From Sphingomonadales bacterium (lineage in GTDB: Bacteria; Bacteroidota; Bacteroidia; Chitinophagales; Chitinophagaceae), in the NCBI GenBank assembly GCA_016872155.1, contig VHBB01000001.1, forward strand, positions 1-64,000: 64,000 nt of DNA. Direction: 5' to 3'. Both the position numbers and the translations under genes were made by a program. Every line of letters starts with the position of its first letter. The stretch's first letter is position 1. The notes beneath the pieces were generated by a model. It worked only from the letters and a program-made list of their open reading frames with translations. It was not told where the DNA came from and made no database searches. Shown here one piece after another: positions 31,590-36,133 of this stretch.

Positions 31590-32210
31590 ATGCAGCTGCC
31601 TTCTGTACTATTGGAAAACGCCGTTAATGCTTTTGCTGCCCTACCGGGGATCGGCAAAAAAACCGCCCTTCGGTTAGTGCTGCACCTGCTTAAGCAAGAT
31701 ACCGAAGAGGTCTTGCAATTCAGTGAAGTGATCGCCACATTGCGTCGAGAGATCAAGACTTGTAAACGATGTGGCAATATTGCCGATAGCGACACTTGCA
31801 CTATTTGTTCGAATGCGTTACGTAAACAGGGGATGTTATGCGTTGTAGAGAGCATCCGCGAATTGATCGCCTTCGAGAATACCCAACAATACAACGGACT
31901 CTACCATGTTTTGGGTGGAATTATATCTCCGCTCGACGGCGTGGGTCCCGATCAACTCAATATTCATACCCTTATTGAAAGGGTCAAAAAAGAAGGAATA
32001 GAAGAGCTGATCTTTGCCCTTAACCCTACCATACAAGGCGATACCACCGTTTATTATATTCAGAAAAAACTCAAGGATGTGCCCGTAAAGATCAGCACCA
32101 TTGCCAGAGGGGTGGCCTTTGGAGGCGAACTGGAGTATACAGACGAGATGACCCTGGCTCGCAGCCTTCAAAACCGACTGCCTCTCGATCGATATATCAG
32201 TGGTTTATAA
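31590..32210 (+). CDS. recR: Recombination mediator protein RecR
   Basis: The 206-residue protein matches RecR in length and layout: N-terminal HhH (LPGIGKKTALRLVLHLL), a C4 zinc finger with Cys58, Cys61, Cys70 and Cys73 (CKRCGNIADSDTCTIC), a Toprim domain (CVVESIRELIAFENTQQYNG through GDTTVYYIQKKL) and the C-terminal Walker B-like LPLDRYISGL. With RecO it loads RecA on SSB-coated single-stranded DNA during gap repair. It follows the Big_5 lipoprotein by 21 bases. Confidence 0.97.
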   Translation: MQLPSVLLENAVNAFAALPGIGKKTALRLVLHLLKQDTEEVLQFSEVIATLRREIKTCKRCGNIADSDTCTICSNALRKQGMLCVVESIRELIAFENTQQYNGLYHVLGGIISPLDGVGPDQLNIHTLIERVKKEGIEELIFALNPTIQGDTTVYYIQKKLKDVPVKISTIARGVAFGGELEYTDEMTLARSLQNRLPLDRYISGL

Positions 32211-32226
32211 GCTAATACCCCTATAC

Positions 32227-32257
32227 TTGGTGATATAAGGTATCTATTGTAAATTTG
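32227..32257 (+). promoter_or_regulatory. Bacteroidota-type promoter of metH genes
   Basis: A TTG (32227-32229) and a TAAATTTG (32250-32257) separated by 20 bases match the Bacteroidota consensus TTG / TAnnTTTG. Transcription would begin near 32262, giving a leader of about 145 bases that contains the nested hairpin structure described separately. Confidence 0.65.
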
Positions 32258-32283
32258 CAATTCTTACGGGCGGATTTGTTTAT

Positions 32284-32366
32284 TGTTCGGCCTCTTCTAA
32301 CAGAACTAATAAACGGCAAGGAACTCTGGCAGTTTCCTCTCGTTTATCAGACCCCATTCCCGAACA
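32284..32366 (+). promoter_or_regulatory. Structured leader RNA upstream of metH, possible riboswitch
   Basis: Three nested stems are perfect or nearly so: P1 TGTTCGG (32284-32290) with CCGAACA (32360-32366), P2 ATAAACG (32309-32315) with CGTTTAT (32341-32347), and P3 AGGAACT (32319-32325) with AGTTTCCT (32331-32338, one bulge). A small hairpin TTCT/AGAA (32295-32305) lies in the junction between P1 and P2. The element lies between the promoter and metH. I could not match it to SAM-I, SAM-II, SAH or cobalamin riboswitch consensus, all of which would make sense for methionine synthase. It may be an unlisted class or a diverged member. Confidence 0.5.
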
Positions 32367-32406
32367 GCTACAGACCGGTCGTAACAGGAATAAAAACCTA
32401 TTCGAC

Positions 32407-33417
32407 ATGAAGCGTATTGAAGAAAGTCTGCAGCAACGCATCTTAGTGATCGATGGTGCCATGGGTACCATGATCCAGCGCCACAAACTGAGCGAAGCCG
32501 ATTACCGTGGAGAGCGCTTTAAGGATTGGCATTGCGATGTAAAGGGAAATAACGATCTCCTCAACATTACGCAACCCGAGATCATTATCGGTATTCACCA
32601 ACAGTACCTGGATGCCGGTGCCGACATTATCGAGACCAACACCTTTAGCAGCACTACGATTGCCATGGCCGATTACGAGATGCAATCGCTAGCCAAAGAA
32701 CTCAATGTAGCCGCGGCCCGTTGCGCCCGCGAAGCAATTGCTCGCTCGGGTAAGACCGCTTGGGTAGCCGGTGCCTTTGGTCCACTCAACAAAACCCTTT
32801 CTCTTTCGCCCGATGTCAACAACCCGGGCTTTAGAGCGGTGACCTTCGATGAGGTCGTAGCCGCCTATTACGAACAAGTGGTCGGGCTGGTAGAAGGAGG
32901 CGTGGATATTTTACTAATTGAGACCATCTTTGATACGCTCAATGCCAAAGCTGCCATTTATGCCATTAAAAAATATTTTCACGAGCAACAGCGCGAGCCA
33001 CTACCCATCATGATCAGTGGAACCATAACCGATGCCTCGGGACGTACCCTGAGTGGGCAAACCCTGGAGGCCTTTTACACATCGGTAATGCATGCAAGAC
33101 CCTTGTGTATTGGTCTTAACTGTGCGCTGGGTGCAAAAGAGATGCGTCCTTACATCGAAGAGCTCTCTCAACTGGCCAGCTGCTACGTATCGGCCTACCC
33201 CAATGCAGGGCTGCCCAATGCCATGGGAGAATATGATGAACGCCCCGAAGACACCGGACATTATTTAGAGGAGTGGGCGCGCGAAAAGTTCGTGAATATT
33301 GTCGGAGGCTGCTGCGGTACTACCCCCGATCATATTCGCCACATTGCCGAGCACGTCAAGGGCTTGACCCCACGCCCCCTGCCCCATGTTGAAAAGACCA
33401 TTCCTGTCACTGCATAA
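32407..33417 (+). CDS. metH: Methionine synthase, homocysteine-binding half
   Basis: The 336-residue protein is the N-terminal module of B12-dependent methionine synthase as a free-standing subunit: a homocysteine S-methyltransferase barrel beginning [15 protein letters not shown]. Zinc ligands are Cys239 (IGLNCALGA), Cys302 and Cys303 ([11 protein letters not shown]). It binds and activates homocysteine for methyl transfer from methylcobalamin on the second subunit, encoded immediately downstream. Splitting of MetH in this way is common in Bacteroidota. It follows a promoter and structured leader. Confidence 0.95.
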
Positions 33418-33445
33418 ATCAACCCTGTACATTCAACGCTGTAGT

Positions 33446-36133
33446 ATGCAAGAATCCGTAACCATTTTTCCCTTTCTGCGCTTGTCGGGCCTAGAGCCGC
33501 TGGTCATTCGGCCCGAGACCAATTTTGTGAACGTGGGGGAACGTACCAATGTAACCGGCTCTAAAAAATTTGCCCGGCTTATTAGAGAGAACAAGTACGA
33601 AGAGGCCTTGAGCGTAGCTCGCCAGCAAGTAGAGAGCGGAGCACAGGTGCTCGATGTCAATATGGATGATGCGCTTCTGGACGGTATGGCGGCCATGACC
33701 ACTTTTTTAAATTTACTACAAAGCGAACCCGATATTGCGCGTATTCCGTTAATGATCGACAGTTCTAAATTCGAGATCATTGAAGCCGGACTAAAATGCG
33801 TGCAAGGAAAATGCATTGTCAATTCGATCTCACTGAAAGAAGGAGAAGAAAAATTTTTACAGCAAGCCGAGATCTGCCAGCGCTTTGGAGCGGCCGTAAT
33901 TGTAATGGCCTTTGACGAGAAGGGGCAGGCCGATACCATGCAGCGAAAAGTAGAAATTTCGGAGCGGGCCTATACGCTGCTGACCACGCGCCTAGGCTAC
34001 GATCCGCAAGACATTATTTTTGATCCGAACGTTTTTGCCGTTGCCACCGGTCTTGAGGAGCACAACAACTACGGAGTAGATTTTATAGAGGCGACCCGTC
34101 TAATAAAACAGAAAATGCCACTGACCAAAGTAAGTGGCGGGGTCAGCAATCTTTCTTTTTCGTTTCGCGGCAACGAACCGGTACGAGAGGCCATGCATGC
34201 CGTATTTCTTTTCCATGCCATTAAAGCGGGGATGGATATGGGGATCGTCAATGCAGGACAGTTGGCTGTTTATGACGAAATCGAACCCGAGCTACGACAG
34301 CTATGCGAGGACGTAATTCTAAATCGCAACAACGACAATAACGAAGCCACCGAAAAACTGATCCGTTTTGCCGAAACCGTAAAAGCCAAGGATAAGACCG
34401 AAGAAAAAAATGAAGCCTGGCGATCGACTTCGGTAGAAGAACGACTTAAGCATGCGTTGATCAATGGTATTACCGAGTATATAGACACCGATACCGAAGA
34501 AGCGAGAAATAAATATCCTCGTCCGCTCGATGTGATCGAAGGCCCACTGATGGCCGGGATGAATGTGGTGGGCGACTTGTTCGGAGCCGGTAAGATGTTC
34601 TTGCCCCAAGTGGTCAAGAGCGCCCGTGTGATGAAAAAAAGCGTAGCCTGGCTTACCCCCTTTATCGAAGAAGAAAAAAAGAACAACCCATTAGCCAGTC
34701 AGGGCAGTGCCCCCAAAGTACTGTTGGCCACCGTTAAGGGTGATGTGCATGACATTGGAAAAAATATTGTGGGGGTCGTATTGGGCTGTAATGGGTACGA
34801 GATTATAGATATGGGCGTAATGGTACCCACCGATAAGATCTTGGACAAGGCCGAACAAGAAAAAGCCGATATTATTGGACTAAGCGGATTGATTACCCCT
34901 TCGCTCGACGAGATGGTGCATGTGGCCCACGAAATGAAAAGAAGAGGAATGAAACAACCGCTACTCATTGGCGGGGCTACCACCTCTAGAATGCATACGG
35001 CCGTAAAGATCGCTCCCCAATACGAACATGGCGTATTGCATGTGCTCGATGCATCGCGCAGCGTTACCGTGGTTAGCTCACTGCTTAATAAAGAGCAGCG
35101 AAAAGAGCTCTTGCAGCAGACCCAAACCGAATACGAAGGGCTGCAACAGCAATTTTTGAATAAAGGAAAAAAGAATCTGATCCCTTATGCAGAGGCCGTA
35201 GTGACCAAAGAATATTTTGACTGGAAAAACTACAGACCCGTAACCCCTTCGTTTACCGGTACCCGGGTGCTGAAAAATATTGATCTGGCCACCTTGGCCC
35301 GCTATATTGACTGGGGACCTTTCTTTATTGCGTGGGAAATGCCCGGACGTTATCCGGCCGTGCTTTCCGATCCGATCTTTGGTCAAGAGGCCACTCGTCT
35401 CTTTAACGATGCCAACACGCTGATCAAAAAAATCATAGCGGAACATTGGTTCCAGGCCGATGGTGTGATCGGGTTTTGGCCGGCCACCAGTAACAATGCC
35501 GATACCATTACGTTGCAAACCGAACAAGGCGAGGTCAAGATCGAGTCGCTTCGTCAGCAACTGAAAAAAGCCATTGGGCAGCCTAACTTTTCGTTAGCCG
35601 ATTTTATTTGTCCGGCCGAGCTGGGCACGGATTATATGGGATCGTTCGCCGTTACCATTCACGGGGCCAAAAAATATATTGATCGTTTTGCTGCCGAGCA
35701 AGATGAGTACAATAAGATCTTGGTGCAACTATTGGCCGACCGCTTCGTAGAGGCCTTTGCCGAATACCTGCACGAGCAAGTCCGAAAAGAGTATTGGGGC
35801 TATGCTCAACAAGAATCCTTAAGCAACGAAGAGCTGATCACCGAAAAATACCAGGGTATTCGTCCGGCTCCGGGTTATCCGGCCTGCCCTGATCATACCG
35901 AAAAACTCAAACTCTTTTCGCTGCTACAAGCCACCGAAACGATCGGGATTACCCTTACAGAAAGTTTGGCCATGAATCCGCCGGCTTCGGTTTGTGGTTG
36001 GTATTTTTCGCACCCAGACAGCCATTACTTTGGACTGGGCAAGATTGATCGCGATCAGTTAAAGGATTATGCTAAGCGAAAAGGAATGAGCCTGGAAGAA
36101 GCAGATAAATGGTTGCGCCCCGTATTAGAATAA
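33446..36133 (+). CDS. metH: Methionine synthase, folate-, B12- and activation-domain half
   Basis: I favour the ATG at 33446 ([20 protein letters not shown]), giving 895 residues; an earlier ATG at 33386 overlaps the first metH gene by 32 bases and is possible. Domains in order are pterin-binding (about 10-270; [16 protein letters not shown]), cobalamin cap (about 310-410), B12-binding (about 415-560; DVHDIGKN with the cobalt-ligating His435) and the SAM-dependent activation domain (about 585-890; [15 protein letters not shown]). It methylates homocysteine held by the partner subunit, using methyl-tetrahydrofolate, and can be reactivated by SAM. All catalytic domains are present. Confidence 0.95.

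Follow-up and report, generated by a model that had tools for sequence, protein, structure and literature searches.

The window, by which we mean the whole 64,000-nucleotide stretch of DNA analysed here, carries a methionine synthase gene (metH) that is split into two overlapping open reading frames. NCBIfam models confirmed the identity that an earlier sequence-only reading had given to the gene 3′ of the leader; the first frame (metH-N) scores below the whole-protein cut-offs because it represents the N-terminal part alone. What had been called a consensus promoter proved to be a promoter-like TAnnTTTG element at 32250-32257, a sequence that we take to be the Bacteroidetes promoter consensus; it is not of the sigma-70 type, a sigma-70 promoter scan of the leader stretch giving no site. 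Directly 5′ of the leader and on the same strand lies recR (31590-32210), and a RecR-like coding end was noticed by eye in the same place at four other loci (L021, L038, L040 and L269).

Table 1. Features of the metH leader and gene, in window coordinates.
Feature	Position	Strand	Basis or remark
Promoter-like element, Bacteroidetes-type	32227..32257	+	TTG 32227-32229, 20-nt spacer, TAAATTTG 32250-32257
P1 5′ arm, GGGC	32268..32271	+	pairs with 32290-32293
Linker joining P1 and P2, GGAUUU	32272..32277	+	putative counterpart of SAM-II/SAM-V third strand
P2 5′ strand, GUUUAUUGUUC	32278..32288	+	pairs with 32303-32314
P1 3′ arm, GCCU	32290..32293	+	pairs with 32268-32271
L3, variable loop	32294..32302	+	alignments
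P2 3′ strand, GAAC-U-AAUAAAC, with bulged U 32307 and U 32310	32303..32314	+	alignments and SAM-V comparison (PMC6061858)
Hairpin AGGAACU...AGUUUCCU, between pseudoknot and alternative partner (putative expression platform)	32319..32338	+	predicted fold
CGUUUAU, alternative partner of P2 3′ strand	32341..32347	+	pairs with 32309-32315; excludes P2
CCGAACA, 3′ arm of the outer stem in the sequence-only reading	32360..32366	+	can pair with 32284-32290; lineage-specific
metH N-terminal half, regulated gene	32407..33417	+	NCBIfam TIGR02082 positions 1-326, NF007024 positions 10-344
metH C-terminal part, overlapping ORF	33386..36133	+	NCBIfam TIGR02082, 1202.9 bits, above cut-off

A DNA search with window positions 32240-32430 as query (E up to 0.1) against 294 genomes of the same family returned matches in 232 genomes and in 89 of 101 genera, centred on 32266-32315. 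The conserved element within this region, 32268-32315 in the window, is an H-type pseudoknot made of two helices, P1 and P2. The P1 helix, GGGC:GCCU in the window, is often longer in relatives. The segment between TTGTT and NNACTAAT, which holds the P1 3′ arm and L3, ranges from 9 to 71 nt, and its lengths modulo 3 (65, 62 and 49 cases) show no clear frame bias; a leader peptide was therefore judged unlikely. Lineage-specific insertions were noted in the variable loop of L014, L016, L022 and L136, some of them self-complementary by eye.

Covariation was assessed in an alignment (A3) of 60 sequences, a hand-picked subset of the 169 unique core segments that excludes f12 loci with shifted junctions and cores with very long loops. 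A check of the metH leaders of relatives for covariation had been proposed with the sequence-only reading, and covariation is indeed present, in the pairs of the pseudoknot. All seven modelled P1 pairs change on both sides, with a covariation score of 0.176 against 0.072 for shuffled alignments (0/500 shuffles reached it) and 0.016-0.058 for slid versions of the pairing. P2 is paired in 99.2% of cells; two of its 11 pairs show changes in both partners (C-G to U-A at the bottom and U-A to C-G near the top), and seven are invariant, which is no evidence of covariation either way. A stem-length test that used all 154 unique arm sets found a best P1 stem of at least three pairs in 149, reaching the scored maximum of 10 in seven, with a mean of 5.4 pairs against 4.0 after shuffling; 21 of the sets have a short P1 of three or fewer pairs, and in none of 200 shuffles does any of the seven P1 positions pair as often as it does in the real sets. 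The first core alignment (A2, 47 sequences) had displayed little covariation because BLAST had picked near-identical cores, and divergent loci were required; likewise, the 34 invariant columns in those first 47 aligned cores arise in part because the cores were BLAST-found.

The covariation also bears on whether the element acts as DNA. An inverted repeat, GTTTATTGTTC...GAACTAATAAAC, lies just 3′ of the promoter-like element and adjoins it, as might be expected of an operator that binds a repressor. However, the distance between the half-sites follows the 9-71 nt segment and varies widely, unlike that of a dimer site, P1 pairs across the repeat with covariation at 7/7 pairs, and the second half-site abuts the start codon in sister families, so that an operator is scarcely credible.

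The pseudoknot replaces an earlier proposal for this leader, a nested RNA of three stems at 32284-32366. The complementarities on which that proposal was built do exist, UGUUCGG (32284-32290) with CCGAACA (32360-32366), AAUAAACG with CGUUUAU, and an inner hairpin, and the stems together constitute the minimum-energy fold, which speaks for them, although the folding program used cannot display pseudoknots. The fold at 32284-32366 is weakly distinct from chance (z -1.56; its stability was equalled or exceeded in 14 of 200 shuffles), and that of the whole leader, 32265-32406, stands out better (z -2.65; 2 of 200). The conserved pseudoknot starts 16 nt further 5′, and the nested RNA omits the conserved positions 32268-32283. 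Moreover, the 3′ arm of its outer stem is rare, CCGAAC occurring within 100 nt 3′ of the pseudoknot P2 in 5/192 leaders (the window and four others), and its second stem, common in relatives, is an alternative pairing of a pseudoknot strand. The rarity of the arm largely refutes the nested architecture, and we regard it as very improbable that this is the functional structure.

The distribution of the motif was followed with two covariance models and an exact pattern. With the first model (R1), used to find divergent copies, all 13 hits with E <1e-9 among 395 genomes of the phylum fell in the same family as the window, the other 18 matches having E values of at least 0.002; among 248 genomes of the order, R1 also matched the sister families f12 and f16. 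The second model (R2), in which divergent copies were included, gave hits at E up to 0.01 in 101 of 328 order genomes, 89 of them in f1 (by inference Chitinophagaceae), 11 in f12/f16 and a single one in f17 that was judged to be chance. Among 237 genomes of the class, R2 matched four f1 genomes and gave one further weak hit, also judged chance. An exact pattern search of named genomes yielded at least 119 stretches; among the pattern matches listed are Chitinophaga, Ferruginibacter, Niabella, Terrimonas, Segetibacter, Sediminibacterium, Puia and other genera, many matches being labelled only Bacteroidetes or similar and a few apparently mislabelled. One locus recorded as Beijerinckiaceae (L238) has the motif with metH downstream and is probably a mislabelled metagenome-assembled genome. 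Several weak R1/R2 hits were set aside as chance: L113, which has no metH and stress-protein-like ORFs by eye, L315 and L316, and L120-L129 and L132-L135, which have no metH by tblastn.

The motif is closely tied to metH. Of 98 sampled Chitinophagaceae genomes, 97 have metH-N, and 73 of these carry the motif just 5′ of it; the distance from the motif end to the start of the metH match is -1 to 320 nt in these 73. These 73 account for most of the 80 R1 hits in the sample; six of the seven remaining hits are weak (E 0.015-0.042), and the seventh (G086:C62) is strong (E 1.8e-11) and lies 18 nt from a contig end. Among the pattern matches listed, metH-N is found downstream in 113/119, and the other six end within 118 nt. 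About a quarter of the sampled metH genes (24 genomes) are without the motif. One of these genomes, G068, has a SAM-I riboswitch before metH; among the other 23 leaders, three (L281, L282 and L285) are truncated at contig ends, L282 beginning within a motif-like tail. Of the 20 readable leaders without motif and SAM-I (L270-L280, L283, L284 and L286-L292), 13 have TAnnTTTG 4-10 nt before the start codon and are thus nearly leaderless; the other seven are not of this kind.

In f12, copies also precede metH-C (L112, L114 and L314). A draft assembly, G743, carries two copies on different contigs, L110 ahead of metH-N and L314 ahead of metH-C, an apparent co-regulation of the split enzyme. The frame of the gene that follows L111 stops after 17 codons.

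Of 176 unique upstream sequences, 155 have TAnnTTTG within the 54 nt that precede the motif, against 5/176 when shuffled, and in 142 of the 155 it sits 6-13 nt 5′ of P1. The motif is therefore probably the 5′ end of the metH mRNA. A conserved cis-acting pseudoknot RNA for metH is well supported.

Searches with all 4227 Rfam families (Rfam 15) over the window and a 301-nt leader gave no match at gathering score within the leader. When E values up to 10 were allowed, the leader had a single match, nos_TCE (E 9.8), which was taken as chance, as was a mir-59 match (E 2.9) met in the relaxed Rfam comparisons. The Rfam comparison suggested alongside the nested-stem proposal (SAM, SAM-II, SAH and cobalamin) gave no match: the SAM-I, SAH, cobalamin and THF riboswitch models did not match the window or the 301-nt leader, and SAM-II (RF01726) and SAM-V (RF01826) matched neither the window nor, at E up to 10, any of 40 short loci, at which none of the Rfam SAM models matched. 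The statement that no known SAM, SAH or B12 signature is apparent thus stands as far as Rfam is concerned, but a SAM-II/SAM-V core, AUUUG...AUUG...CUAA, is visible in the right order, and for this reason we regard the RNA as a variant of the SAM-II/SAM-V fold rather than an unrelated class. The suggestion of a new methionine-related riboswitch class can be kept in part: this is an unregistered conserved metH leader RNA and probably a methionine-pathway riboswitch, on a variant of a known fold. With filters off, R1 gave 23 matches over 20 SAM-II loci, all of them away from the SAM-II sites; covariance models thus do not establish formal homology to SAM-II. Since the Rfam SAM models and this reciprocal search both fail, the motif is not filed as a SAM-II or SAM-V member. 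No description of it was found in the open-licence literature searched.

In SAM-II, the contact to the amino-acid end of SAM is presumably A47, which we treat as equivalent to A50 of SAM-V. The crystal-structure study of SAM-V describes a 4-bp P1, a third strand G5-G11 that includes U8, U9 and U10, and a descending strand A18 U19 U20 G21 to C24, followed by G43 and by U47 A48 A49 A50 (PMC6061858). U47 pairs with the SAM adenine, the U20:A48.U9 triple lies opposite the sulfonium, and the amino-acid end is held by A50, whose replacement by inosine caused a severe loss of binding (PMC6061858). By hand alignment, 14 of the 16 SAM-V core letters compared match the window (G32272, U32275-77, G32278, A32282, U32283, U32284, G32285, C32288, G32303, U32307, A32308 and A32309), the mismatches being C6, which is G in the window, and A50, which is U32310. 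The likeness extends to the 4-bp P1, a mostly matching third strand, 4 bp of P2 below the bulge and the U47-A48-A49 order; as letters in the hand alignment, U47 and the U20:A48.U9 triple are present as U32307, U32284, A32308 and U32276. The GGAUUU linker agrees with SAM-V at G5, U8, U9 and U10, not at C6, and agrees likewise with the Bacteroidia SAM-II loci, an analogy by which it may take part in a triplex. Several features differ from SAM-V. The turn A12 A13 C14 has no counterpart in the window, and the turn before A18 is shorter; where SAM-V has conserved A41 A42 before G43, the window reads ACA, with C at the A41 position; and one extra nucleotide (32289) separates P2 from the P1 3′ arm.

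With SAM-II the motif shares the H-type pseudoknot, P1, the AUUUG third strand, a short P2a, AUUG paired to C-U-AA with a bulged U, the P1 3′ arm and a variable L3. The core letters AUUUG / AUUG / CUAA stand in pseudoknot order, and both helices covary, P2 weakly; the 119 pattern-found loci listed contain these letters by construction, which does not apply to the window or to BLAST- and R1-found loci. The motif differs in P1 sequence and in spacing, in having GUUC:GAAC instead of GC:GC below the bulge, and in the U that stands in place of A47. SAM-II itself occurs in the same bacterial class (Bacteroidia examples L082-L101): RF01726 matched 32 of 148 genomes of the phylum, 19 over the cut-off, and most Bacteroidia loci read GATTTG or AATTTG, then P2a, ATTGC and GCTAAA. 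A metK-like gene, not metH, follows all 20 fetched RF01726 loci (19 over cut-off), and a family model confirmed metK for L095 and L098. These two loci, from one genus of f18 and both over the cut-off, were also the only 2/20 SAM-II loci fetched with U at the A47 position, carrying UAAU as the motif does.

A descriptor of the SAM-II/SAM-V type hit 19/20 SAM-II loci, the window leader and 105 of the 119 motif loci among the pattern matches listed, whose letters were partly selected for, against a background of 35 places in 1.79 Mb of strand (0.02 per kb); the window has one further match. As it was written after the motif had been seen, the descriptor offers support rather than proof. The motif appears to work like a member of the SAM-II/SAM-V group.

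The genomic surroundings of SAM-I riboswitches (RF00162) bear on the ligand. The SAM-I fold differs from the SAM-II/SAM-V-type pseudoknot, and its model does not match the window leader; it nevertheless holds the same place, before metH, in G068 and in five of the nine loci fetched from the order's other families (L024-L027 and L030; L025 scores 44.6 bits against a cut-off of 44.4). SAM feedback at metH therefore seems common in the order, and the motif would thus take at metH the place that SAM-I holds in other families. Within f1, SAM-I was found in 78/98 genomes (89 hits), only once before metH (G068), and 59 of the 73 motif genomes have it elsewhere. Eight of these f1 loci were fetched and five scanned; of the five, three lie ahead of a gene of the O-acetylhomoserine sulfhydrylase type, one ahead of a cystathionine gamma-synthase/lyase-like gene (below cut-offs) and one ahead of a homoserine dehydrogenase gene. 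The window genome (G000) gave no SAM-I and no RF01726 hit genome-wide, so that, with respect to these two families, the motif may be its only SAM-type sensor.

We favour, with moderate confidence, a candidate SAM-II/SAM-V-like riboswitch variant that would shut off metH, most likely at high SAM; a SAM sensor acting as an off switch is likely. The core likeness and the position of SAM-I in other families also weigh against a leader bound by a protein, for example one autoregulated by MetH or recognized by a regulator, rather than by a metabolite. Service to one gene function, as in autoregulatory leaders, and strong sequence conservation would both suit such a protein site, which nevertheless seems improbable beside a known ligand-binding core.

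The main doubt on SAM as the ligand is the A50-to-U change. The A47/A50 position is U in every metH-linked copy read (in pattern-found loci by construction), and an A-to-U change here makes altered specificity possible. A non-SAM ligand on the same pseudoknot, with specificity shifted to a different adenosyl or sulfonium compound or another metH-related metabolite, would also agree with the confinement of the motif to metH while 59 motif genomes have SAM-I elsewhere, and SAM aptamers can change ligand, as SAM-I variants that bind spermidine illustrate, with a different fold and different genes (PMC10853860). The same UAAU before metK at L095 and L098, the retention of the SAM-V letters that recognise adenine and sulfonium, and the SAM-I riboswitches in the same place in other families make such a shift rather unlikely. 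More specifically, and tentatively, one can picture a retooled SAM-II/SAM-V pseudoknot at metH in Chitinophagales in which A47/A50 is replaced by a Watson-Crick A-U pair and one or more different ligands are bound, for example through the adenosyl-sulfonium part only, a possible but doubtful account.

The motif is a common (73/97 sampled Chitinophagaceae metH genomes) and unregistered regulatory RNA at a central methionine and one-carbon gene. If the SAM-II/SAM-V assignment is true, that fold would have yielded one more solution here, and the residue gripping the amino-acid end of SAM would have been the subject of a natural experiment. At metH, related families rely on SAM-I, on the motif or on almost no leader, so that the replacement of one riboswitch by another and the re-specification of a ligand can be tested directly.

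Two leader arrangements were seen. In the short type, the first ATG lies 0 nt after P2 in 5/5 f16 loci, 0-8 nt after it in seven of eight f12 loci (35 nt in L105), and 11-15 nt after it in 12/113 pattern matches listed, all of them Chitinophaga; four further Chitinophaga pinensis loci have long leaders. In the long type, which makes up 101/113 of the pattern matches listed, the start codon is at least 53 nt from P2. A home-made scan, run without shuffle control, found an intrinsic terminator in 0/101 long leaders among the pattern matches listed, and none was found in the window stretch.

On the SAM-II/SAM-V-like reading, 32268-32315 would be the aptamer of a metH riboswitch, in which the adenine of SAM, the putative ligand, stacks across from bulged U 32307 and a U.A-U triple involving the AUUU third strand holds the sulfonium, so that the bound ligand stabilises P2. 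SAM-V typically lies within ten nt of a start codon, with metagenomic examples before metH (PMC2704228). In nearly all the short leaders of f12, f16 and Chitinophaga, 0-15 nt separate the P2 3′ strand from the start codon, so that the RNA, once bound, can mask the start site; as has been proposed for SAM-V, initiation would then be blocked directly by ligand-stabilised P2, and methionine synthase would be switched off.

In the lineage of the window, the P2 3′ strand could pair instead with CGUUUAU (32341-32347), and two exclusive folds would compete, with translation, Rho or RNA stability as candidate readouts of the long leaders. The potential for this alternative pairing recurs: a helix of at least 7 between the P2 3′ strand and an alternative partner is available in 108/167 leaders, against 28/167 mononucleotide shuffles. 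When the same 67 nt were scanned in short and long leaders, with shuffles, CGTTTA was found within 75 nt after P2 exactly in 47 of the 101 long leaders listed (2.65 shuffled) and within one mismatch in 83 (39.7 shuffled); the 12 short leaders listed gave 0 exact copies and 0 within one mismatch. A hairpin similar to that at 32319-32338 is visible in many relatives, and one of them, L007, is predicted to fold stably into the alternative hairpin (z -2.60). Separately, 12/113 pattern matches listed have an element TTGCGTCGCA, with no more than one mismatch, between motif and start codon, and it was also seen in L052 and L055; 894 kb of pattern-matched loci listed contain 16 exact copies.
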